Shown piece after piece: positions 27,973 through 41,418 of a DNA stretch of 64,000 bases; within the stretch, counting starts at the first letter, position 1, and every line of letters begins with the position of its first letter. The DNA is from Alphaproteobacteria bacterium (GTDB lineage Bacteria > Pseudomonadota > Alphaproteobacteria > Rhizobiales > Rhizobiaceae): positions 1 through 64,000 of the forward strand of contig JAJRQF010000133.1 of assembly GCA_024280375.1 (NCBI GenBank), in the 5' to 3' direction. The notes beneath the pieces were generated by a model that was given only the letters and a program-made list of their open reading frames with translations, was not told the DNA's origin and made no database searches. The translations under genes and the position numbers were made by a program.

Positions 27973-28005
27973 GGGCCCAATGCAGGAAAATAGACTGTTT
28001 CACAT

Positions 28006-28437
28006 TCAATGCTGGGAAAGGCGTTCCAGCAGATTTTTTAATTCAAGTTTCTCAGTGTTATTTAGCCCGCCATCAAAGTTTGGTTCGCATTTTTCCATGT
28101 CCTGCTTGCACTTATCAAATAGTTCAATGCCAAAATCGGTAATGAATACCAGAACCCGGCGATTGTCGTTTTCGTCCTGTTTGCGATGGACAAGTGCGCG
28201 GGAAACCATGCGATCTATGGTTTTCGACAGGGCAGAAAAGCTCATCAAAACCTGATCACACATCGAGCCGACCGCATGGCCCTCACCATCGGATAACATG
28301 GAAAGGATTCGCCATTGCTCAACCGGTAATTTCCGGGATTTAAGGGTGTCGAGCAATCTGCTGTTTACATGTTTATGCGCCCTTGCCAAGGCAAAGGCGA
28401 GGTCATCGGATTGGGCCATTTTGTTGCGGTCGGGCAC
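28006..28437 (-). CDS. MarR-family transcriptional regulator
   Basis: A 143-residue winged-helix regulator. The GTG start lies nine bases after GGAGG. The family pattern is clear: LPVEQWRILSMLSDGEG, the recognition helix LMSFSALSKTIDRMVSRALV near residues 64-83, and the wing RKQDENDNRRVLVFITDFG. It faces away from the AmiC-like gene and the amide operon. An inverted repeat lies 24 bp upstream of its start, consistent with autoregulation. Its ligand is unknown; aromatic acids or amide-derived acids would fit the context. Confidence 0.88.
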   Translation of the reverse strand: MPDRNKMAQSDDLAFALARAHKHVNSRLLDTLKSRKLPVEQWRILSMLSDGEGHAVGSMCDQVLMSFSALSKTIDRMVSRALVHRKQDENDNRRVLVFITDFGIELFDKCKQDMEKCEPNFDGGLNNTEKLELKNLLERLSQH

Positions 28438-28460
28438 TTGTTTGCCTCCTGATAATCCAA

Positions 28461-28473
28461 TGCAAATATTGCA
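28461..28473. promoter_or_regulatory. Candidate MarR operator
   Basis: TGCAAATATTGCA is an inverted repeat (TGCAA/TTGCA around ATA) 24 bp upstream of the MarR start, in the divergent intergenic space, where MarR proteins usually bind. The half sequence TTTACTTTCCT at 28496-28506 also recurs inside the palindrome at 29802. Confidence 0.4.
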
Positions 28474-28684
28474 CCAATAGCCTGCAAATCAGCAATTTAC
28501 TTTCCTGTTCAATTAATCATGAATTTGGTAATCGTCAACAGATTCCGTTGAGTTGCTCTCAATAAACGCGAAAAAAACTCCCAAAATATACATTGTGTAA
28601 TTGCGAAATTCATCGCAGACTGATGTGGCTTGAGCATAACAAAAACCGCCGGGCGACTGTAATACGGGAGATATATGCGCACAT

Positions 28685-29770
28685 ATGAGGCGATCAACCA
28701 GCTCAATTTCATCAAAGCGTTCAGACCTGCTTAGCGTTGGATTGTTTATTCCAACCAGTGGTGCTGCCGGAATATGGGGGCCGTCTTGCCGGGCCTGCGC
28801 GGAAATTGCCTCGGCTGAAATTAATCAGGCCGGCGGTATAAATGGTCGTGAAGTGGTTTTAAAAATATTTGACGCAGGTGATACGCCAGCAATGGTTGCG
28901 GGCACGGCCGAGGATTGTTTTTTTGATGGCGAAATTGATGCAATTGTCGGCATGCATACCAGCGATGTTCGTGAGGCGCTGGCGGGTGCCATTGGCAGTA
29001 AACTGCCTTACGTTTACACGCCGCTTTATGAGGGTGGTGAGCGCACGCCCGGGGTTTTTTGCATTGGGGAAACACCTGCCATGCAATTGTTACCGGCGGC
29101 CAGTGGGCTTTCTGAGCGTTATAAACTAAAGCGCTGGTATCTGGTTGGAAATGATTATATTTGGCCGCGCGCCAGCAATGCTGTGTTCCGCAAAAATCTC
29201 GCCACCACCGGCGGCACGGTTTGTGGTGAGAAATATCTGCCCTTTGGTACGACTGATTTCGATGCGCTTTTGGAAGATATTACTGCCAGCAAGGCTGATG
29301 CGGTTTTGGTGTCGCTGGTGGGTAGCGATACAATTCAATTCAATAAACAATTTGGCCGCTCGAAAATCGCGCAGAAAATATTACGACTATCCTGTGCGAT
29401 TGAAGAAAATGTTCTTTTGGGCATAGGGGCCGATTATAGCGATGGACTGTTTGCGGTTTCGGGCTATTTCAGCGACATCAATACGGCGAAAAACAATTCA
29501 TTCAAGGAACGCTATCACACGCGGTATGGTGCACCCGGCCCGCAGCTTAATTCGATCGGTCAGTCGATCTATGAAGGTATGCATTTTTTGAAAGCTCTTT
29601 CGGTTGAAAGCGAGACGACTGACTGGCGACTGGCGGACCAGAATATTGCCTATGATGGAACCCGCGATGCCGTGTTTTCAGCAAGTCATGGCATGAACTC
29701 GACCATATTTCTGGCCGAGGCTCATGGGCATAATTTGAAGGTTGTCGAGAATTATCCGCTCAGCCGTTAG
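28685..29770 (+). CDS. AmiC-like amide-binding protein (periplasmic-binding-protein fold, no signal peptide)
   Basis: The 361-residue protein belongs to the Leu/Ile/Val-type binding fold: VGLFIPTSGAAGIWGPSCRACAEIASAEIN at the start, then GGINGREVVLKIFDAGDTP. Several blocks follow Pseudomonas AmiC closely in order and spacing: YVYTPLYEGGERTPGV, YLVGNDYIWPRASNAVFRK, and GGTVCGEKYLPFG. The N-terminus is polar (MRRSTSSISSKRS) with no hydrophobic export segment, so it should act in the cytoplasm, like AmiC, which senses amides. No AmiR-type antiterminator is in the window. A strong GGGAG site lies 14 bases upstream, rather far; a short out-of-frame ATG lies closer to it. Confidence 0.75.
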   Translation: MRRSTSSISSKRSDLLSVGLFIPTSGAAGIWGPSCRACAEIASAEINQAGGINGREVVLKIFDAGDTPAMVAGTAEDCFFDGEIDAIVGMHTSDVREALAGAIGSKLPYVYTPLYEGGERTPGVFCIGETPAMQLLPAASGLSERYKLKRWYLVGNDYIWPRASNAVFRKNLATTGGTVCGEKYLPFGTTDFDALLEDITASKADAVLVSLVGSDTIQFNKQFGRSKIAQKILRLSCAIEENVLLGIGADYSDGLFAVSGYFSDINTAKNNSFKERYHTRYGAPGPQLNSIGQSIYEGMHFLKALSVESETTDWRLADQNIAYDGTRDAVFSASHGMNSTIFLAEAHGHNLKVVENYPLSR

Positions 29771-29801
29771 ACGCCTGCTCTGATTAATTTTGGTCATGGC
29801 A

Positions 29802-29827
29802 TTTTTACTTTCCTAGGAAAATAAAAA
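29802..29827. promoter_or_regulatory. 26-bp palindrome upstream of the amide operon
   Basis: The two 13-bp halves (TTTTTACTTTCCT and its complement) match at 12 of 13 positions. It lies 160 bp upstream of the flotillin gene and touches TTGACT (29827-29832), a possible -35 box. It could be an operator for the MarR or another regulator, or a bidirectional terminator after the AmiC-like gene. Confidence 0.45.
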
Positions 29828-29989
29828 TTGACTTCGAAGGTTATTCGGTCAATTCTTGCGTTCGACCAAGGCTTGTTGATCAATCGTTTGAGGCAAGTTT
29901 CAGGTGGGTGCGTAATTTCGCCTGCCTTTCGGCTGTTAAATGGGAAATCGTCATTTGATTAAGAACGCGAAGCAATAACGGGATTGGTA

Positions 29990-31573
29990 ATGGATATTTT
30001 TATTTCGCTCATTGTGATTGTCGTTGTTGTGGCAATCGGCATTGCATTCATGCAGCGGTTTTATCGCAAAGCTACGCGGGAGCGGGCCTTAATCCGCACC
30101 GGAGCAGGCGGTGAACGCGTGGTGCTTGATGGCGGTTTTCTGGCGCTGCCGTTCTTGCACCGGGTTGAGCAGATCAATATGCGAACCATGCGCCTGCAAA
30201 TCCGTCGGATGGGCGAGAAATCCCTGATGAGCGAAGACCGGTTGCGGCTGGATGCGGAAGTTGAGTTTTATCTGCGCGTTGAACCATCAATGGAAGGGGT
30301 GGCAACGGCGGCTCAATCGCTCGGCGCGCGCGCTTTAAACCCGGATGAATTGGGCAATTTATTCAATGGACGGTTCGTGGATGCTATGCAATCTGTTGTG
30401 GCGACCAAGACTATGGACCAGCTGCATGAGGACCGGGGTGGCTTTGTTAAAGCCGTGCGGGCGGAACTGGCCGAGGGAATGAAATCAAACGGATTGCGGC
30501 TGGAATCCGTATCGCTTACCCATCTTGATCAGGCGTCATTTGCTTCGCTGGATGAAAATAATGCGTTCAATGCGGTCGGTATGCGCCGCCTTGCGGAAGT
30601 GGTTTCTTCAAACAGGAAAAAACGCGCCGAAATTGAGGCGGACGCCGATGTTTCTGTGCGTCAGGTTCAGTTGGACAGTTTGAAACGTACACTGCTGATT
30701 GAAGAAGAACAGAAAAAAGCGGAAATTCAGCAAGTGCAAACCATTGAGGCTGCAAAGGCAAATTCTGCGGCCGCGACCGAACTTTCCCGGCAAAATGCCC
30801 AGATGGAAGCGGATCAGGGAAAAATCGGAGCTGATCTTGAAACCCGTAGGCGCGAGATTGAGCGAGACAAAGATTTACGCCAACACGAGGTGCAGGCATT
30901 GCTTGCAGCAGAATCTGCCAAAATTGAAAGTCAGATTGCCCTGGCTAAAAAGCGGGCGGAAGAAAATGCCATTATTGCTGAAACCGAACTGTCGCGGGAA
31001 TCTGTAATTGCCGCACAGGAGAAAATTCAGTCGGAAAAAGAACGTCTGGTTGCTGAACGTGAGTTGAATGCAGCTTTGATTAAAACCCGCCAACAAAGCC
31101 AAACCACCGAAGAACGCACCAAATCCGAGGTTAAAACTTTGCTTGAGACGGTGCAGGCCGAGGCAAAGGCTTCTGATTTACGCGCCGCCGCCAAGCGCTC
31201 AGAGCTGGCTGCGGAAGCAGAAGGCAAGGCTGCGTTGATAAAGGCAGAAAATCAACTGGCCCCGGAAATCATTGCCATGAAGCTCGATATGCATAAGATG
31301 GACAGATTGCCGGAGCTGGCTGAAAAAATGATGAAGCCGCTGGAAAAAATCGACTCCATCCGCATCAATCAGATTTCTGGTCTTGGCATAGGCGATAGTG
31401 GGCAGGCGCAGGCCGGGCCAATTGATGGCGTTGTGGATGGTGCGTTAAAACTTGCGCTGCAAATGCCGGCGATGAAAAAAATTGGTAAGTCTGTCGGGGT
31501 TAATTTTGATTTTGACGAAAAAGTGGAGAAGAAAAAAAGACCAGCTAAACCAAGTGGAAAATCCAAAAAATAA
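29990..31573 (+). CDS. Flotillin/SPFH-domain membrane protein (YqiK-like)
   Basis: The ATG at 29990 is preferred over a TTG two codons earlier. The 527-residue protein starts with a membrane segment (about 3-22), then an SPFH/PHB domain (about 30-200: RTGAGGERVVLDGGFLALP; LDAEVEFYLRVEPS), then a long Glu/Ala/Lys-rich coiled coil (about 205-430) and a basic lysine-rich tail. Flotillins form membrane scaffolds. It ends 19 bp before the binding-protein gene of the amide importer, so it is likely in the same transcript. A flotillin inside a transporter operon is uncommon and suggests a scaffold for the transporter or the amidase. Confidence 0.87.
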   Translation: MDIFISLIVIVVVVAIGIAFMQRFYRKATRERALIRTGAGGERVVLDGGFLALPFLHRVEQINMRTMRLQIRRMGEKSLMSEDRLRLDAEVEFYLRVEPSMEGVATAAQSLGARALNPDELGNLFNGRFVDAMQSVVATKTMDQLHEDRGGFVKAVRAELAEGMKSNGLRLESVSLTHLDQASFASLDENNAFNAVGMRRLAEVVSSNRKKRAEIEADADVSVRQVQLDSLKRTLLIEEEQKKAEIQQVQTIEAAKANSAAATELSRQNAQMEADQGKIGADLETRRREIERDKDLRQHEVQALLAAESAKIESQIALAKKRAEENAIIAETELSRESVIAAQEKIQSEKERLVAERELNAALIKTRQQSQTTEERTKSEVKTLLETVQAEAKASDLRAAAKRSELAAEAEGKAALIKAENQLAPEIIAMKLDMHKMDRLPELAEKMMKPLEKIDSIRINQISGLGIGDSGQAQAGPIDGVVDGALKLALQMPAMKKIGKSVGVNFDFDEKVEKKKRPAKPSGKSKK

Positions 31574-31592
31574 TACACCAAGGGAGAAGAAA

Positions 31593-32813
31593 ATGAAAAT
31601 TGATCGCAGAAAATTTGTGGCAGGAACAGCCGCCGCCGGTACTTTGGCATTCCTGCCCAAAATGGCCATGGCGGGCGAGACCATCAAGGTTGGCTCTATC
31701 CTTGATACGTCCGGTATTTTCGACCTTTACGGCAAGCCAATGGACAAGGCCGTAACGCTTGCCATTGAAGAATTAAATGCAGCTGGTGGTATTGCTGGGA
31801 AAATGCTTGAAAAAGTCGCCTATGACACCCAGTCCAATATGGCACTCTATACCCAGTTTGCCCAAAAGCTTACCCGTCAGGACAAGGTGGATGTGGTGCA
31901 TGGGGGCATTCTTTCAGCATCGCGTGAGGCCATTCGCCCAACATTGCGTAAGTCGAAAACCTTGTATTTTTACAATGTTCAATATGAGGGTGGCGTTTGC
32001 GACCGCAATATTTTCTGCACCGGTGTAACACCTGCCCAGCAGGCCGAAGTTCTGGTGCCCTATGCGATGGAGAAATGGGGCAAGAAAATCTACATTCTGG
32101 CCGCTGATTACAATTATGGCCAAATCACAGCCAAGTGGATTGAGCACTATGCGGGTAAAGCCGGTGGTTCCGTTGTAAAAACAGATTTCTTCCCGCTTGA
32201 TGTGGCTGATTTTGGATCAACTATTGCCAAAATTCAAGAAGCTGCACCGGATATGATCATGTCAGCGCTTGTTGGTGGCGCGCATCTTTCGTTCTATCGC
32301 CAGTGGGCGGCTGCCGGAATGAACAAGAAAATTCCAATGGCCTCCACCACGCTTGGTGCGGGTAATGAGCAGGTTGTTTTGACCAAGGAAGAGGGTGATG
32401 GCATTCTGCTTGCCTATTCCTTTTCCAAGGAACTTGATCGGCCTGAAAACAAGGCGTTTCTGGACAAGTGGCAAAAACGCTTTGGTTCGACCGACGACAT
32501 TCACGAGCTTGCGGTTGCGACCTATCAGGGTATGCATTTGTGGGGTGCTGGCGCTAACAAAGCTGGATCAGTGGAACGTGACAAAGTGGTGGAAGCGCTT
32601 GAATCCGGCGTTAGCATTACCGGCCCCAGTGGCAAGATCACCATTGACCCTAAAACCCACCATGTGGTGACTGATGTGCATATTGTTGAAGTTGGCGATC
32701 AAAAAATGAATGTGGTCAAAAGCTATGATCAACGCCAACCGGTTGATACCCAGGCAGTGTGCGATTTAAGCGCCAATCCGGGTGATACAACTCAATATGA
32801 AATCAAGATTTAG
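31593..32813 (+). CDS. Amide/urea-type ABC transporter substrate-binding protein, Tat-exported
   Basis: The frame runs upstream into the flotillin gene, but AGGGAGAAG followed by ATG at 31593 sets the start. The 406-residue protein begins with a twin-arginine signal (MKIDRRKFVAGTAAAGTLAF). The mature part is the branched-chain-amino-acid/urea/amide fold: IKVGSILDTSGIFDLYGKPM, AIEELNAAGGIAGKML, and YNVQYEGGVCDRNIFCTG, the last resembling UrtA/FmdD. It is related to the AmiC-like protein encoded at 28685. It probably delivers short amides or urea to the two permeases that follow. Confidence 0.87.
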   Translation: MKIDRRKFVAGTAAAGTLAFLPKMAMAGETIKVGSILDTSGIFDLYGKPMDKAVTLAIEELNAAGGIAGKMLEKVAYDTQSNMALYTQFAQKLTRQDKVDVVHGGILSASREAIRPTLRKSKTLYFYNVQYEGGVCDRNIFCTGVTPAQQAEVLVPYAMEKWGKKIYILAADYNYGQITAKWIEHYAGKAGGSVVKTDFFPLDVADFGSTIAKIQEAAPDMIMSALVGGAHLSFYRQWAAAGMNKKIPMASTTLGAGNEQVVLTKEEGDGILLAYSFSKELDRPENKAFLDKWQKRFGSTDDIHELAVATYQGMHLWGAGANKAGSVERDKVVEALESGVSITGPSGKITIDPKTHHVVTDVHIVEVGDQKMNVVKSYDQRQPVDTQAVCDLSANPGDTTQYEIKI

Positions 32814-32844
32814 TTCGCTCATCATTGAGTTAAACCTTGAATGA

Positions 32845-32870
32845 GGGCCGGATCCGTGAGGAATCGGCCC
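32845..32870 (+). terminator. Intercistronic hairpin between binding protein and permease genes
   Basis: GGGCCGGATCC and GGAATCGGCCC pair over 11 positions (one mismatch, one G-U) with a GTGA loop. No T tract follows. Such hairpins after binding-protein genes usually stabilise the upstream message and reduce read-through to the membrane genes. Confidence 0.55.
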
Positions 32871-32891
32871 CAATATCTCCGGGATTAAAAT

Positions 32892-33758
32892 ATGGATTAT
32901 GCCGCGGTTGTGATCGTGGAGATTTTATATGGTATCTCTGTGCTGGTTTTGATCAGTGCGGGGCTGGCCGTCGTATTCGGCATGATGCGGGTGATTAATC
33001 TTGCGCATGGTGAATTTATAACATTGGGTGGCTATGCAGCGATCACCGCCCACTCGCTGGGTGTGCCAATATTTATCTCGACTTTAATTGTTGCTCCCAT
33101 TGTGGTGGCGATATTCGGGCTGGTGGTTGAACGGCTGATTGTGCGTTTTCTCTATGGGCGGTTGATCAATACCATGCTCGCCACATGGGGGTTGAGCCTG
33201 TTGATGATAGGTGGAATGACCATGATTTTTGGCAATACCACCACCGGTATTCCAACTCCTATTTCAGGTTTCACGCTCGGGCGTTATCAGATGAGCGGCT
33301 ATAATCTGTTTGTCATTTTCATGGCCATTGTCACGGTTATGATAATTTACGGGGTTTTGAAAACCACGCGCGCCGGGCTTATCGCGCGCGGTGCCATGCA
33401 GAACCCCGAAATGGCCAATGCATTTGGCTATAATACCTCACGTATATATATGCTGACCTTCACCGCCGGAGCGGCGCTTTCGGGTCTGGCTGGCGGTGTT
33501 ATGGCTCCGCTTGTCGGGCTTAATCCAGCATCGGGGGCCAATTATATCGCCAAGGCTTTTATTACGGTGATTTCCGGCGGCACCTCTGTGGTTTCTGGTC
33601 TTTTATCCAGCGCCACCCTGTTTGGTTCGGTCTCGCAAATCGTCACCTTTATTTCCACATCGGTCGTCGGAGAAATCGCCCTGCTGATTGCAGCGGTCAT
33701 TTTGCTTCGACTACTGCCAACCGGCATAACCGGTCGTTTTTTGAAAGATCGGGTGTAG
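32892..33758 (+). CDS. ABC transporter permease, LivH/UrtB type
   Basis: A 288-residue inner-membrane permease with about eight spans. The HAAT-family signature VVFGMMRVINLAHGEFITLGGYAA lies near residues 25-48, and the cytoplasmic coupling loop GLIARGAMQNPEMANAFGYN near 160-180. It starts with ATG 22 bp after the hairpin described above. With the LivM-type subunit it would form the amide channel. Confidence 0.92.
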   Translation: MDYAAVVIVEILYGISVLVLISAGLAVVFGMMRVINLAHGEFITLGGYAAITAHSLGVPIFISTLIVAPIVVAIFGLVVERLIVRFLYGRLINTMLATWGLSLLMIGGMTMIFGNTTTGIPTPISGFTLGRYQMSGYNLFVIFMAIVTVMIIYGVLKTTRAGLIARGAMQNPEMANAFGYNTSRIYMLTFTAGAALSGLAGGVMAPLVGLNPASGANYIAKAFITVISGGTSVVSGLLSSATLFGSVSQIVTFISTSVVGEIALLIAAVILLRLLPTGITGRFLKDRV

Positions 33759-33759
33759 C

Positions 33760-34797
33760 GTGGGCGGTTTGAAAGAAATTGCGCTCACCATAATCGTGGG
33801 CCTGTTGTTGATGGTGTTGCTGCCATTGGGCGTCGATACGTTCACCCTGACTGTGCTTTGTATCTATGCACTGCTTGGGCTGAGCCTCGGATTCATCTGG
33901 GGGTTTGGCGGCATATTGTGCTTTGGGCAGGCGGCATTCTTCGGGCTTGGAGCCTATGCCTATGCGATTGCGGCGATTAATTTCGGCACGCCCTGGGCGC
34001 CATTTTTTATCGCCATCATTGTGCCTGCGCTGATTGCAGCGGTGTTTGGCGGCATGTTGTTTTTCGGTCGGCTAAACGATGTTTATCTGGCTGTTTTGAC
34101 GCTGGTTTTTACATTGATCCTGTACAAATTTATGAATGTGACAGCGGGTGAAAACTATGTAATCGGCAAGGCCCGGCTTGGCGGGTATAATGGTATCCCC
34201 GGTTTTGAAACCCTGTCGCTACCATGGGATCCATCTGAATATATTTATGGCGACAGCCTGTTTTATTTCTCGCTCACCTTGCTTCTGCTGGTTTTTCTGG
34301 GGCTGCGCTGGTTGCTCAAAAGCCCGTTTGGCCGGGTGATGATTGGGGTGCGTGAAAACGAGCTTCGGGCCGAATTGATGGGCTATGATGTTCGTATGGT
34401 CAAAACTGCCGTGTTCGCTATTGGTGGCGGTGTGGCCGGTCTTTCTGGCTGTCTTTATGCAAACTGGGCCGAGATTGTCACCCCCAATCTTTTCTCACTT
34501 GGCCAATCTGCCGAGGTGATTATCTGGGTGATTGTCGGCGGTGCCGGAACCCTGTTTGGCCCCATTTTGGGGGCGGCGATTATGGGCTATTTGAAGTTCC
34601 TTTTGGGCCAGCAGAGCCTGATTGATAACACGCTGGTGATGGGGGCTGTGTTGGTGCTGGCGGTGCTGCTTTTGCCACGCGGAATATTCCCGGTTATTAC
34701 CGATTTATTCACCCGTCGGGTCGGGCGCGGCAAAAAAGCCAATCGCAAGTCGTCTCGAAGAGGCCGCCGCAGAAGGGAGGGTTCCGATGCTAAATGA
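33760..34797 (+). CDS. ABC transporter permease, LivM/UrtC type
   Basis: A 345-residue permease starting with GTG one base after the LivH stop. The LivM signature GLSLGFIWGFGGILCFGQAAFFGLGAYAYAI is near residues 38-69, and the coupling loop GVRENELRAELMGYDVRMVK near 200-220. The C-terminus is extended and very basic (RRVGRGKKANRKSSRRGRRRREG), which is longer and more charged than usual for the family. The following ATPase start overlaps its stop by 11 bp. Confidence 0.92.
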   Translation: MGGLKEIALTIIVGLLLMVLLPLGVDTFTLTVLCIYALLGLSLGFIWGFGGILCFGQAAFFGLGAYAYAIAAINFGTPWAPFFIAIIVPALIAAVFGGMLFFGRLNDVYLAVLTLVFTLILYKFMNVTAGENYVIGKARLGGYNGIPGFETLSLPWDPSEYIYGDSLFYFSLTLLLLVFLGLRWLLKSPFGRVMIGVRENELRAELMGYDVRMVKTAVFAIGGGVAGLSGCLYANWAEIVTPNLFSLGQSAEVIIWVIVGGAGTLFGPILGAAIMGYLKFLLGQQSLIDNTLVMGAVLVLAVLLLPRGIFPVITDLFTRRVGRGKKANRKSSRRGRRRREGSDAK

Positions 34798-35506
34798 TAT
34801 TGTGGTTGAAGCCCGTGATCTGACCGTGCGGTTTGATGGTGTTGTGGCGCTGGACAATGTAAACTTGAAATTGCAGCGCAACGAATTACGCTGCCTGATC
34901 GGGCCGAACGGGGCTGGCAAAAGCACCTTCTTTAAATGTCTTGCTGGAATGCAGGTGCCAACCAGCGGCGAGATGATTGTCGAGGCTGAAGTTACAACCG
35001 GCTATGATCCTTTTCGGATTGCGCGGCTTGGCATTGGCATCAAGACGCAAGTGCCTAGTGTGATGGATGGGCTTACGGTTCATGAAAATATCTGGCTTGC
35101 GGCACGGCGTACCCAGAGCACGCGCAAGGCCAACGGAATTGTTGATGATATTCTGGAACGGCTGAAATTGGGCGACCTTTCCCGGCTGGATGTCTCTACC
35201 CTTGCCCATGGCCAGCGCCAGATTGTCGAACTTGGTATTGTGCTTGCGGGCGATCCCTGGCTGGTTTTGCTGGACGAACCGGCGGCGGGTTTGACCGGCG
35301 ATGAGGTGGAGCGCATGGTCAATGTGATTAAAGAAATCAACGATTATGCAACGCTGATTGTGGTTGAACACGATATGCATTTTATTCGGCAAATTGCCAA
35401 AATGGTCACCGTATTTCATCAGGGCCGGGTGCTGATCGAGGAAGATGTGGACACGGTTCTAAGCGACCCGATTGTACGCGATGTTTATCTGGGTAAACGC
35501 CGATGA
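34787..35506 (+). CDS. ABC transporter ATPase, LivG/UrtD type
   Basis: A 239-residue ATPase with GGGAGG before its ATG. Walker A GPNGAGKSTFF near residue 39; the signature region is the degenerate form LAHGQRQIVELGIVLAG seen in UrtD/LivG proteins; Walker B LVLLDEPAAGLT near 160; switch VVEHDMHF near 187. It pairs with the second ATPase, which is encoded as the N-terminal half of the next gene. Stop and start overlap as ATGA. Confidence 0.92.
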   Translation: MLNDIVVEARDLTVRFDGVVALDNVNLKLQRNELRCLIGPNGAGKSTFFKCLAGMQVPTSGEMIVEAEVTTGYDPFRIARLGIGIKTQVPSVMDGLTVHENIWLAARRTQSTRKANGIVDDILERLKLGDLSRLDVSTLAHGQRQIVELGIVLAGDPWLVLLDEPAAGLTGDEVERMVNVIKEINDYATLIVVEHDMHFIRQIAKMVTVFHQGRVLIEEDVDTVLSDPIVRDVYLGKRR

Positions 35507-37881
35507 ATGAGAATAGCGAACAAATGATTTTGGAAGTATCATCATTGCGCAGTGGCTATGGGGCAATTCCGGTGCTTCACGGGGCTGAACTTTCTATCAC
35601 TGAAGGCTCAATCATTGGCATACTTGGCCATAATGGCATGGGGAAATCCACGCTGTTAAAAACTATTATGGGCTATTTGCCGGTGACCAGCGGGCAAGTG
35701 AAATTTGATGGTGAAAACATTACCTCGCTGCCGGTGCATGAGCGCGCGCGGCTTGGCATTGGTTATGTGCCGCAGGATCGGGGAATTTTTACCCAGTTGA
35801 GCGCTATTGATAATCTGCGGTTTGCCTGGAGTGAGGATGCTTCAGAATATCCTCTCGATGAAGCAATTGAGCAGACGCTGATTGAGTTTCCGCGGCTAAA
35901 ACCGCTGCTTACCCGGTCGGCTGGCGCGTTGAGTGGCGGAGAGCAACAAATTCTGGCCATTGCCCGTTGTTTGATTGCAGAACCCTATTTGCTTTTGCTG
36001 GATGAGCCGACCGAGGGAATTCAACCCTCGATAATCGACGAGATTGCCGAGACATTGAAATCCCTGCGGGATAATCGCGGGCTAACAGTTGTGGTGGTTG
36101 AGCAAAATCTGGATTTTCTGACCGACCTTTGCGACCGATTGGTGATTTTTGAGCGTGGCGAAGTGAAGGTTGACCTTGCGACCAATGAAACCGATTCAGC
36201 CAGCCTGATTGATGAATTTGTCGGCCTTGGTGCCGGTCGTATGACCAAGGGCGCGCAGTCTCCAACCAGCACTGGCCCAACTGCTCAAAGCAAACATTTA
36301 TCGGCGCAAGAGCGTCCGCAAATTTCAACCGAAATCCCGGCTACGACTGCCGGTAAGGAGGCTTACATGACGGTAAGACGCCCAACGCTGCAGCAGATGC
36401 GCGACGTATCATCGGGCCTTGGCATGACCATGTCAGATGCCGAACTCGGCGAATATATGGAATTGATGGAGGCCAATTTTCAATCCTATGATCTGATTGA
36501 TTCCATGCCGGATGAATTGCCCAAGGTTAAATATCCGCGCACGCCGGGCCATCGCCCATCAACGGCCGAAAACCCAATGAACGCCTGGTATGTGAAATCA
36601 GAAATACGCGGTGCGGTATCTGGCCCGCTGGAAGGGCGCACGATTGTATTAAAGGATAATGTCTGCCTTGCCGGTGTGCCAATGATGAATGGCTCGTCGA
36701 CGCTTGAAGGCTATACGCCGGATATTGATGCGACGATTGTCACACGTATTCTCGATGCCGGCGGTACGATTGTCGGCAAGGCCCATTGCGAGCATTTTTG
36801 CCTTTCCGGTGGCAGCCACACCAATTCAACCGGCCCGGTGCATAACCCCTATAAGGTGGGCTATTCGGCCGGCGGATCTTCATCTGGTTCCGGCGCGCTG
36901 GTGGGGGCTGGTGAAGTTGATATGGCAATCGGTGGCGATCAGGGCGGGTCTATCCGTATTCCGGCATCGTTTTGCGGGTGTTATGGTATGAAGCCAACCC
37001 ACGGGCTGGTGCCTTATACCGGCATTATGCCGATTGAACCAACGATTGATCATACGGGACCGATTACGCAAAATGTGTCGGATAACGCCCTGTTTCTGGA
37101 AGTGCTTGCCGGTGATGACGGGCTTGACCCGCGCCAATATGCACCCAGAACAGACCGCTACACTGAAGCGCTTGGGCGGGGTGTTGGTTCGATGCGCATT
37201 GGTGTTGTGCGCGAAGGTTTCGGTCTTGAAAACAGCGAAGCGGATGTGGACCAGAAAGTGCGCGATGCGGCCGCACTCTTTGCCAAATTGGGTGCGGTGG
37301 TGGAAGATGTATCCATCCCGATGCATCTGCAAGGGGCGGCGATCTGGACCCCGATTGCGCTTGAGGGTTTGACCGACACCATGATGCACGGCAATGGTTT
37401 TGCCACCGGCTGGAAAGGGCTTTATGTGACCAGCCTGCTGGATGCCCATTCCAATTGGCGCAACCGGGCGGATGAATTATCAAAATCGCTGAAAATTTCC
37501 ATGTTTGTTGGCGAATATATGCAAAAGCATTATCGTGGCCATTATTATGCCAAGGCGCAAAATCTAAGCCGTCGGCTGCGGGCTGCTTATGATGATTTAT
37601 TGTCACGCTATGATCTACTGTTGATGCCGACCCTACCGATGAAGGCGACCCCCATTCCCCCGGCCGATGCTTCTATTTCCTTGACGGTGCAACGGGCATT
37701 TGAAATGGTTGGCAATACGGCTCCGTTTGATGCAACTGGCCATCCGGCGATGAGCATTCCCTGCGGTATGAGCCAGGGTCTACCCGTTGGTATGATGCTG
37801 ATTGGCAAGCATTTCAACGAGAGCACGATTTACCGGGCGGCCCATGCATTCGAGCAATCCGGTGATTGGAAAGATATGTAA
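35503..37881 (+). CDS. In-frame fusion: LivF/UrtE-type ABC ATPase with an amidase-signature amidase
   Basis: One uninterrupted 792-codon frame. Residues about 8-238 are a complete LivF/UrtE ATPase (Walker [12 protein letters not shown]; signature [15 protein letters not shown]; Walker [13 protein letters not shown]; switch VVEQNLDF). Residues about 240-285 are a Thr/Ser/Gln-rich linker. Residues 289-792 are a full-length amidase: catalytic Lys in IVLKDNV, the Ser-rich signature [19 protein letters not shown] and [17 protein letters not shown]. Blocks such as [20 protein letters not shown] recall the Rhodococcus amidases that work with nitrile hydratase. It should hydrolyse amides to acids plus ammonia at the transporter. 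Codon 289 is ATG behind a strong ribosome site, so a free amidase may also be made. Confidence 0.9.
36355..36369 (+). promoter_or_regulatory. Internal ribosome binding site and start codon for the amidase half
   Basis: AAGGAGG at 36355-36361, five bases before ATG at 36367-36369, in frame with the fusion. The ATG lies exactly where full-length amidases begin, so a separate 504-residue amidase could be translated from the same message. This is the best-matching ribosome site in the operon. Confidence 0.75.
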
Positions 37882-39644
37882 TGTCCTATTCAACCATTGA
37901 TGATTTATCCAAACCGATAACATCGCTGGATGGTTCGGCAAATAAAGCGAGTGGCGATATGGCCGACTTAAAGCCGCAAGATGGTTCCTATGTGCGGGGT
38001 GATACCGCTAGCCCCCTATGGCGCAAGACTATTTATCAGGTGTTGAAAGATACGGCATCTGAATTTGGCCACCGCGATGCGGCGATTTTTTGCCAGCATG
38101 ATGTGCGCTGGACATGGAACGAACTTTTAAGCAAATGCGATGATTTGGCATCCGGCCTTTTGGCGCTGGGGCTTAAGCCTGGCGACCGGGTGGGCATCTG
38201 GTCGCCCAATCGGCCGGAATGGCTGTTGATGCAATTTGCCACCGCGCGGGTGGGTATTATTCTGGTCAATATTAACCCGGCCTACCGCACTTATGAGCTT
38301 GAATATGCGTTGAATAAATCCGGCTGCAAGGCTTTGGTTTTAGCGGAGAATTTCAAAACCAGCGATTATGTGGCGATGTTGCGCGAGCTTGCGCCGGAAA
38401 TAGATAATTGCGAGCCGAGCACGCTTAATTCGGCAAAACTGCCTGCGCTTCAATCAGCCATCGTCACCGGCGATAATGCGCCAGCTGGATTTTTTGCCTT
38501 TGATGATGTCATGAAAATGGCCGGCCCGGCACACCGGATGCGACTTGATGAAATGTCGGCCGGTCTTGATCCGGATGATCCGATCAATATTCAGTTCACA
38601 TCCGGCACCACCGGCTCGCCCAAAGGGGCGACACTGACCCATTATAACATCGTCAATAATGCACGGTTTGTGGTTGGCACAATGGGCTTTTCAGAAAATG
38701 ATAAATTGTGCATTCCGGTGCCGCTATATCATTGTTTTGGCATGGTTATGGGCACGCTTGGTTGCGCTACCACCGGGGCTGCGATGGTGTTTCCAGCAGA
38801 GGCGTTTGATCCGATTTCCACGTTAAAGGCCATCAGTAGCGAACGATGCACGGCGCTTTACGGGGTGCCAACAATGTTTGTTGCCATGTTGGAATCGCCG
38901 CAAGCTGCACAAAGCGATTTCTCCTCGCTGCGCACCGGCTGTATGGCAGGCGCACCTTGCCCGATCGAAATTATGAAACGGGTGGTTGGCGAAATGAACA
39001 TGAAAGAGGTGACCATCGCCTATGGAATGACCGAAACCAGCCCTGTCTCATTCCAATGCCATGCAGATGATCCACTGGACAAACGGGTTTCCACCGTTGG
39101 CCGTGTTCACCCGCATGTGGAGGTGAAGGCCATTGATGAAAATGGCAAGATCGTACCGGTGGGCGAACCGGGCGAATTGTGCACCCGTGGCTATAGCGTT
39201 ATGCGCGGTTATTGGGATGATGACGAGCGCACCGGCGAAAGCATTGATCAATCCGGCTGGATGCATACGGGTGATCTGGCGACCATTGATGAGGATGGCT
39301 ATTGCGCCATTGTTGGCCGGGTAAAGGATATGCTCATTCGCGGTGGTGAAAATATTTATCCTCGTGAGGTGGAAGAATTTTTGTTTACCCACCCAAAGGT
39401 TGCCGAAGTACAGGTGTTTGGTGTACCGGATGAGAAATATGGCGAGGAGGTTTGCGCGTGGATTGTGCTTAAACCCGATACCAGTGCTGATGAGGCGGAA
39501 ATTCGTGAGTTCTGTAAGGGTAAAATTGCCCATTACAAAGTGCCGCACTATGTGCGTTTCAAGTCAGAACTGCCAATGACCGTGACCGGCAAGCCGCAAA
39601 AGTTCATTATGCAGGATGCCATGATTGAGGAATTGGCCAGTTAA
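37881..39644 (+). CDS. Acyl-CoA synthetase (AMP-binding, FadD/ACSF2 type)
   Basis: The start at 37881 overlaps the fusion gene stop (TAATG) and gives 587 residues. ANL-superfamily motifs: the P-loop-like [20 protein letters not shown] near residue 223, [11 protein letters not shown] near 370, [20 protein letters not shown] near 455 and the catalytic-lysine end [11 protein letters not shown] near 570. It joins a carboxylic acid to CoA using ATP. Coupled directly to the amidase, it most likely activates the acid released from imported amides. The chain length or aromatic nature of the acid cannot be read from sequence. Confidence 0.92.
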
Positions 39645-39701
39645 TTTTTCAGGCTTTGGACATCTTTCAAAATCCGGGTAGGGTATAGAATTCAATACTA
39701 G

Positions 39702-39728
39702 AACGCTTCATTGGTTGATTGAAGCGTT
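39702..39728 (+). terminator. Hairpin after the amide operon
   Basis: AACGCTTCA and TGAAGCGTT form a perfect 9-bp stem with a 9-nt loop, 58 bp after the acyl-CoA synthetase stop. Only a weak T-rich tract follows. Possible terminator; the same kind of AGCG...CGCT arms recurs just after the FGGY kinase gene, so it may instead be part of the repeat element beside it. Confidence 0.4.
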
Positions 39729-39740
39729 CAAATTTGTATT

Positions 39741-39876
39741 CGCTCACGGCTGCTCGAGGCTTTTCTAATGGCTCAAGTATTGCGCTTCGCCTAGATCAGG
39801 TCCGGGCTCAACGTGCAACTTGAGCTGCGCCTCGGCCTACGCGGGTGCGGTGCTAGCACCGGTCGCTTTTCGCGAC
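39741..39876. repeat. Interspersed hairpin repeat, copy A
   Basis: Opens CGCTCACGGCTGCTCGAGGC and TTTTCTAATGG, nearly identical to copy B at 41457. GCTCAAG (39771-39777) pairs with CTTGAGC (39819-39825). A block CTCGGCCTACGCGGGTGCGG follows, then the perfect palindrome CGGTGCTAGCACCG (39848-39861) and GTCGC/GCGAC arms. The inner GCTCAAG-GCGCTTCG-GTGCAACTTGAGC plan is the same as in the 53-bp tandem units. Confidence 0.8.
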
Positions 39877-39927
39877 TTAAGTGCTTCCATGTAAACATGA
39901 GAGACTCTAATCGGACGGTTTTGATCA

Positions 39928-41418
39928 ATGAATTATACGCTTGGAATTGATATTGGCACTTTTGAATCCAAGGGTGTGCTGGTTGATGCAAATGGCAAAA
40001 TTATTGCCTCGGCATCTGAACCGCATAAAATGCTGGTGCCGCAGCCGGGGTGGGCGGAACACCGCCCCGATGAGGACTGGTGGCATGATTTCTGCGCTAT
40101 CTCGAAAAGCCTGCTGGTGCAATCCGCCGTTGATCCTGCTGATATAAAATGCGTATCCTGTAGTGCTATTGGCCCCTGCATGTTGCCGGTTGATGGTGAT
40201 GGCAAACCATTAATGAATGCGGTGCTTTATGGGGTTGATGGCCGTGCGGCGCTTGAGATTGAGGAATTGACCAGCCAAATTGGCGAAGCGCGTATTTTGG
40301 AAAAATGCGGCAATGCACTGACCTCGCAATCGGTTGGCCCGAAGATTTTATGGCTGAAACGCAATCGGCCAGAGCTTTATCAAAAAACCGCAAAAATTAT
40401 CACCTCATCATCCTATCTGGTGTTCAAACTAACCGGTGAAATGGTGATTGATCATCACACGGCCGCAGGCTTCAGCCCGCTTTACGATGCGGATAAACAG
40501 GCGTGGACCGATGAACTTTCAGACGATATTATTCCGCTCGACAAACTGCCGAAACTGATGTGGACGACGGAAATTGCCGGCCATATTACTGATGCTGCAT
40601 CTATTGAAACCGGGCTTGCCATTGGTACGCCGGTGACAACCGGTACGATTGATGCGGCTTCTGAGGCGATCAGTGTTGGATTGCGCGCCAAGGGCGATAT
40701 GATGATGATGTATGGGTCGACCATTTTCATCATTACGCTCACCGAAAACCGGGTGCGCGACGGGCGCTTGTGGTATGCGCCCTGGCTTTTTCCCGGCGGC
40801 CATGCCTCGATGGCGGGGCTAGCGACCAGCGGCACGCTTACCCATTGGTTCCGCGATCAATTTGCCCGCGAACTAACCAAAGAGGAGGCTTTTCCGGTGC
40901 TTGCACAGGAGGCGGAGACCTCGCCGCCCGGTGCCAAAGGCCTGTTGCTTTTGCCGTATTTTTCCGGCGAGCGCACGCCCATTCACGACACAAACGCATC
41001 GGGTACATTTTTCGGGCTTAACCTCACCCATACGCGCGGAGATATGTATCGCGCCCTGCTGGAAGGTATAGCTTACGGCACCAGCCATGTGCTTCGAACC
41101 TACAAGCAGGTTGGCGAAACCCCTTTGCGGCTTTTAGCCGTTGGCGGTGGAACGAAAAACCGGCTTTGGCTACAGGCGACCTCTGATATTGGTGGGTTGG
41201 ACCAGATTATCTGCGAAAATACTTTTGGGGCGTCATTTGGTAATGCATTTTTGGCCGCATGCGCCATTGGAGCGGCAAAACCGGAAGACATAGACCAGTG
41301 GAACCCGGTTGCATCCACCATAACGGCTAAGGCAAATCCTACTTACGAAAAGCAATATGAACTGTTCCGCAGGCTTTATGAGCAGACCAAGGATATTTCA
41401 GCCGAATTGGGAAATTAG
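39928..41418 (+). CDS. FGGY-family carbohydrate kinase (xylulokinase-like)
   Basis: A 496-residue sugar kinase of the FGGY family, close to the usual 480-510. The N-terminal phosphate-binding motif LGIDIGTFESKGVLVD is at residues 4-19, the substrate-loop segment PGWAEHRPDEDWW near 44, and the C-terminal ATPase motifs LLPYFSGERTPIHD near 348 and LLAVGGGTKNRLW near 405. It would phosphorylate a pentulose, hexulose or sugar alcohol in the cytoplasm. It is flanked on both sides by copies of an interspersed repeat and converges on the sugar importer. A link with the neighbouring sugar island is likely but not proven. Confidence 0.9.
   Translation: MNYTLGIDIGTFESKGVLVDANGKIIASASEPHKMLVPQPGWAEHRPDEDWWHDFCAISKSLLVQSAVDPADIKCVSCSAIGPCMLPVDGDGKPLMNAVLYGVDGRAALEIEELTSQIGEARILEKCGNALTSQSVGPKILWLKRNRPELYQKTAKIITSSSYLVFKLTGEMVIDHHTAAGFSPLYDADKQAWTDELSDDIIPLDKLPKLMWTTEIAGHITDAASIETGLAIGTPVTTGTIDAASEAISVGLRAKGDMMMMYGSTIFIITLTENRVRDGRLWYAPWLFPGGHASMAGLATSGTLTHWFRDQFARELTKEEAFPVLAQEAETSPPGAKGLLLLPYFSGERTPIHDTNASGTFFGLNLTHTRGDMYRALLEGIAYGTSHVLRTYKQVGETPLRLLAVGGGTKNRLWLQATSDIGGLDQIICENTFGASFGNAFLAACAIGAAKPEDIDQWNPVASTITAKANPTYEKQYELFRRLYEQTKDISAELGN

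Follow-up and report, generated by a model that had tools for sequence, protein, structure and literature searches.

The question raised by this locus is whether a single gene yields one protein, in which a transporter ATPase is joined to an amidase, or two, with a free amidase translated from a start codon inside the same frame. The gene lies in the window, the whole stretch of DNA that was analysed (64,000 nucleotides of a Rhizobiaceae contig), and forms a single open frame of 792 codons (Table 1). As the preliminary description had proposed, an ABC ATPase, a linker and a complete amidase share this frame. Pfam places ABC_tran at residues 25-170 and Amidase at residues 367-776 of the 792-residue protein, with PF00005 scoring 111.8 bits against a gathering score of 25. 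The amidase half, residues 289-791, aligns with positions 1-505 of NF005565 (PRK07235 amidase) at 822.7 bits, above the cut-off of 545. Since the model begins at residue 289, codon 289 is the start point of the free amidases of this family, in agreement with the earlier claim. The ATPase half had been called LivF/UrtE-type; its closest likeness is to UrtE (TIGR03410), at a score of 247.1 bits that stays below the cut-off of 285.8, and the LivF model (NF008626) gives 145.9 bits against a cut-off of 441. Simple motif patterns for Walker A, Walker B and the signature are present in 82, 83 and 84 of the 85 fused loci described below. Residues K384, S459 and S483, which we take to be the Lys-Ser-Ser catalytic triad of amidase-signature enzymes, are invariant in all 85 and in 146 of 146 aligned amidases. 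Because motifs and catalytic residues are retained, both halves of the fusion should work, judging from the sequence.

Table 1 Features of the fused gene and its operon, in positions of the window
Feature	Position	Strand	Basis or remark
MarR-type regulator	28006-28437	-	divergent from second binding protein gene
Second UrtA/AmiC-like binding protein	28685-29770	+	profile matches
Flotillin/SPFH protein	29984-31573	+	profile match
UrtA-type binding protein	31590-32813	+	profile matches
UrtB-type permease	32892-33758	+	profile match
UrtC-type permease	33760-34797	+	profile matches
UrtD/LivG-type ATPase; stop overlaps the start of the fusion	34787-35506	+	frame overlap, profile match
Fused gene: ABC ATPase, linker and amidase, 792 aa	35503-37881	+	open frame, domain matches
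UrtE/LivF-type ABC ATPase domain, residues about 8-238	35524-36216	+	PF00005, TIGR03410 matches
Linker, residues 239-288; 241-288 predicted disordered	36217-36366	+	composition, AlphaFold
Putative internal Shine-Dalgarno site AAGGAGG	36355-36361	+	then five bases, then ATG
Putative internal start codon ATG 289	36367-36369	+	retained in 83 of 85 fused loci
Putative nested amidase gene, 504 aa	36367-37881	+	NF005565, 822.7 bits
Putative catalytic Lys384	36652-36654	+	invariant
Putative catalytic Ser459	36877-36879	+	invariant
Putative catalytic Ser483	36949-36951	+	invariant
Acyl-CoA ligase; begins in the amidase stop (TAATG)	37881-39644	+	profile matches, junction sequence

The surrounding operon consists of a divergent MarR-type regulator, two binding proteins with a flotillin between them, two permeases, a first ATPase, the fusion and an acyl-CoA ligase. 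In fused loci with sufficient flank, relatives of UrtA, UrtB, UrtC and UrtD accompany the gene in 51 of 51 cases, a flotillin in 47 of 47 and the acyl-CoA ligase in 52 of 53; the flank of split and lone loci was too short for such counts, and SBP1 was left out of them, as its matches land on UrtA. All importer parts scanned fall below the curated urea and Liv cut-offs, the urea binding protein models TIGR03407 and TIGR03669 reaching 252.1 and 358.4 bits against 492.75 and 494.8. If the fusion's own start is taken as the closest ATG or GTG, a loose test finds it adjoining or overlapping a stop in 62 of 76 loci, and translation of the fusion is therefore probably coupled to urtD. No Rfam family was found within positions 28000-40000 of the window. 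The flotillin/SPFH gene is a constant member of the operon, that is, a membrane-scaffold protein travelling with an ABC importer. The second binding protein, which adjoins the divergent regulator, has no obvious signal peptide by eye and is perhaps a cytoplasmic sensor.

The fusion is not peculiar to the window. Loci were collected from a contig search (the best 80 of 101, by patterns not touching the amidase start) and from matches in whole genomes of the order (46 of 397), the phylum (22 of 398) and the class (46 of 385), with thresholds that differ between these sets. Removal of duplicates left 148 distinct amidase loci, of which 85 are fused, 25 were called split, 30 lack an upstream ATPase (none within 2 kb or within the available flank, often 1.5 kb) and 8 are cut by a contig end. 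Contig loci were ranked by how closely their amidase resembles that of the window, so the proportion of fusions here gives no estimate of frequency. The 85 fused loci are related, some being nearly identical. Three of the 25 split loci (L070, L098 and L099) proved to be second amidases behind a fused gene and one (L168) has a gap of 1562 bases, which leaves 21 relatives whose unfused amidase gene directly follows a separate ATPase gene. The two-domain architecture that the preliminary description suggested looking for in related genomes is thus common in the set, and homologues are not always split, the pattern it had named as counting against it.

Within the genus, a full-length frame occurs in three of four genomes, the window's own included; the fourth genome is 72% complete. 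Beyond it, the fusion occurs in genomes named Rhizobiaceae, Rhodobacteraceae, Rhodospirillaceae and others. Eight fused loci (L024, L031, L038, L042, L067, L071, L080 and L083) come from MAG contigs labelled Gammaproteobacteria, SAR324 or Burkholderiales, through gene transfer or binning error. The genome of locus L063 (G1138) has two amidase matches, at 69 and 68%, both in fused-length frames of 794 and 827 aa. The draft genome containing the window comprises 133 contigs, and an assembly error or frameshift might have joined two genes. The same join, however, recurs in 85 distinct loci, named isolates included, and at the same operon place a complete plasmid of Sulfitobacter alexandrii carries a 2382-base gene annotated 'amidase' (a match by annotation and length). 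We give this explanation practically no probability and reject it.

Amidase trees point to a single event. In a FastTree phylogeny of 146 amidases, from which two of the 148 loci had been dropped beforehand, the 85 fused loci and 6 contig-cut rows form one group with a support of 0.84. In an IQ-TREE phylogeny of 99 thinned rows, the fused label requires one change (SH-aLRT 89). On neither tree was a split gene found inside the fused group. The fusion thus has one apparent origin, with no reversal seen among the 85 fused loci. Split ATPase and amidase genes are the likely ancestral state, as split and lone relatives, for example in Pleomorphomonas, surround the fused group on trees for which no root was inferred.

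The linker had been described as rich in Thr, Ser and Gln; these residues do abound in it, and its composition is wider, with Ala, Gly and Pro as well. Its length ranges from 33 to 107 residues in the 85 fused loci (median 59), and its sequence is scrambled between them, while the Met after it is retained. None of the 85 linkers contains an in-frame stop, whereas the other two frames hold stops in 43 and 29; the stop or frameshift that would have spoken against the fusion is therefore not seen in these loci. The disorder prediction comes from an AlphaFold model built on 37 aligned sequences (mean pLDDT 70.7), which was used for the linker and the ATPase only, the amidase core being partly poor. 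A long, disordered linker rich in Ala, Pro, Ser and Gly could also be the place where a protease cuts the fusion into a separate ATPase and amidase. In the 14 linker columns examined, no conserved residues were found, and cleavage leaves the codon choice at the ribosome site, described below, unexplained. We regard it as very unlikely.

An arrangement noted earlier, AAGGAGG five bases before ATG 289, was located in the sequence as described. The internal Met is kept in 83 of the 85 fusions, in the same column in 81 and shifted by one codon in 2, and is lost in two loci (L070 and L088). On the tree it changed 2 times, compared with 18-54 changes in the 14 preceding linker columns. The amidase columns +4 (Arg) and +5 (Pro) are conserved as well as the Met, which could thus be kept for structural reasons, and its conservation alone is no proof of a start.

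We next consider the ribosome site. Mean pairing with the 16S tail is -8.49 at the internal site. The starts of 50 non-fused amidases, each set at the ATG closest to the aligned start, average -8.50, and 2589 further in-frame ATGs average -4.12. The internal site thus equals the non-fused starts and pairs twice as strongly as other ATGs. Pairing is -6 or stronger at 64 of 85 sites and weaker at 21, for example in L157, L097, L023 and L024. Exact complements of the 16S tail of at least 5 bases occur at 63 of 85 internal sites and at 267 of 2589 control ATGs; complements of at least 4 bases occur at 80 sites, 75 of which end 5-10 bases before the ATG. A 16S tail longer than the 8-base core was read in two fused genomes (...GGATCACCTCCTTTCT), and three anti-Shine-Dalgarno lengths were compared. 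A search with a 16S-tail pattern gave no match in 21 genomes, and an RNA-family search for 16S gave a match in 2 of 10 genomes.

Codon choice appears to maintain this site. Synonymous recoding weakens mean pairing from the observed -8.49 to -5.30. The observed site is stronger than the recoded one in 78 of 85 genes; two shorter anti-Shine-Dalgarno strings give 71 and 67. Each of the three strings shows this in 25 of 28 clusters, and in all 8 of the deep ones. At the controls, 425 amidase ATGs and 255 other linker sites, no recoding effect was found. The three lengths agree in direction and the longest gives the strongest effect; the 8-base core shows a clear peak at the site with mild recoding p values per gene (median 0.25; mean mid-p 0.253; 8% of genes below 0.05). 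The residues encoded at the ribosome site differ by group (for example GKEAY, PREYP, QERMSY, IQEAIY and LVTN), a pattern to be expected where conservation acts on the nucleotides. RNA folding at the internal ATG is the weakest of 22 positions and is weaker than in recoded sequences in 74 of 85 loci; a smaller effect in the same direction is seen at linker positions -60 and -120 (58 and 52 of 85).

Alternatively, only the fusion might be made, with the internal ATG and ribosome site being leftovers of a once separate amidase gene. The 21 relatives with a separate upstream ATPase gene, among them Pleomorphomonas, suggest that start and ribosome site were probably present at the time of fusion. 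Between deep clusters, however, agreement at four-fold degenerate sites is 0.42, against 0.35 by chance from composition. With synonymous sites this near saturation an unused ribosome site should have faded, and linkers are scrambled, yet pairing still equals that of non-fused starts and codon choice keeps the site in all deep clusters. Mere leftovers are therefore improbable. The locus shows the three marks looked for in a gene within a gene, namely a conserved in-frame start, a ribosome site above chance and under selection, and an open RNA structure. The interpretation in the preliminary description is partly supported overall. For two products from one frame the comparison speaks strongly, from the one apparent origin to the conservation of the ATG, of the ribosome site with its codon choice, and of the open RNA structure.

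A separate free amidase (E <= 1e-110) is present in 9 of the 85 fused genomes. Directly after the fused gene in L070, L098 and L099 lies a second free amidase that is 55-57% identical to the window's. Mean pairing at the internal site is -5.12 with and -8.89 without a free amidase (uncorrected p < 0.001), and the same contrast by cluster gives p = 0.019, 0.009 and 0.051 at three cuts. A sign test on the tree, with only 4-5 independent pairs, is not significant. Loss of the internal ATG in L070, with a free amidase next door, fits a relaxation of the site. L097 has a weak internal site and no free copy. In L088 (Pseudosulfitobacter koreensis), where ATC stands in place of the internal start codon, the genome shows no further close amidase at E <= 1e-110. 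We do not claim that a free amidase relaxes the internal site.

We consider it probable, from these comparisons, that the locus is a nested gene giving a transporter-tethered amidase plus a free amidase, in an operon for amide import and use. Initiation at codon 1, probably coupled to urtD, would yield the 792-residue protein, whose ATPase half would work in the importer and would keep the amidase, flexibly tethered, at the cytoplasmic face. Initiation at codon 289, from the conserved Shine-Dalgarno site inside the linker, would yield a free amidase of 504 residues. The amidase would convert the imported amide into acid and ammonia, and the downstream ligase would turn the acid into acyl-CoA. 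The free amidase would be made in excess, and the tethered and free enzymes, perhaps as mixed oligomers, would speed the capture of scarce amides. We infer that both proteins are made, that the ATPase half serves the importer, that the free amidase is in excess, and that the two forms together make amide capture faster; an amide substrate and its channelling are likewise our reading of the operon.

The free amidase could instead be the main enzyme and the attached copy a tolerated by-product, with loss of the stop serving translation coupling or transporter stability. This would agree with the stronger pairing at the internal site than at the presumed start of the whole gene in 56 of 76 loci, and with a linker of widely varying length and predicted disorder. 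It has the internal start in common with the tethered-plus-free reading, and were the join useless, split genes would be expected inside the fused group, where none is seen. We judge a tolerated by-product to be unlikely. Beyond the tethered-plus-free reading itself, we tentatively propose a nested-gene transport metabolon, in which each importer may carry its own amidase, free subunits may join tethered ones, the two ribosome sites may set the ratio of pump to enzyme, and flotillin may gather the complexes in the membrane.

Internal in-frame starts are already known. For Cas11b in cas8b and RpnS in rpn, one frame likewise encodes a full-length protein and, by way of an internal start, a product of its C-terminal part (PMC11899642, PMC10327210). 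In these cases the short product serves as a small subunit or as an inhibitor, whereas the one predicted here is a whole enzyme, a second copy of which is attached to a transporter ATPase. The PRK07235 amidases (NF005565) and the Rhodococcus amidase (3a1i, 3a1k) belong to the same enzyme family over nearly the whole length; they are free enzymes, in contrast to the amidase fused here to an importer ATPase. The Urt and Liv importers for urea and branched-chain amino acids share the same parts, a binding protein, two permeases and two ATPases. They differ in that the parts found here score below the curated cut-offs and the second ATPase carries an enzyme. A plasmid of Pleomorphomonas sp. SM30 likewise encodes binding proteins, permeases and ATPases followed by an amidase, but livF and amidase are two genes there, with a gap of 85 bases, and neither a flotillin nor a CoA ligase is annotated in the stretch shown. 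Peptidase-containing ABC exporters also join an ABC protein to an enzyme that acts on what is transported. Those systems export, whereas the present one is an importer in which the internal start would also free the enzyme. In the open-licence literature, outside which most subscription journals lie, we found neither an ATPase-amidase fusion nor an importer that holds the enzyme for its cargo on a tether and has its own internal supply of that enzyme in free form.

The annotation in the one record looked at is solely 'amidase', which hides both the transporter half and the putative second product. The locus also shows that codon choice and RNA structure can reveal, ahead of any expression measurement, ribosome sites within fused genes. 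If the proposed reading is true, nature would here have combined in one gene the coupling of an importer to the enzyme acting on its cargo and the production of that enzyme in excess.
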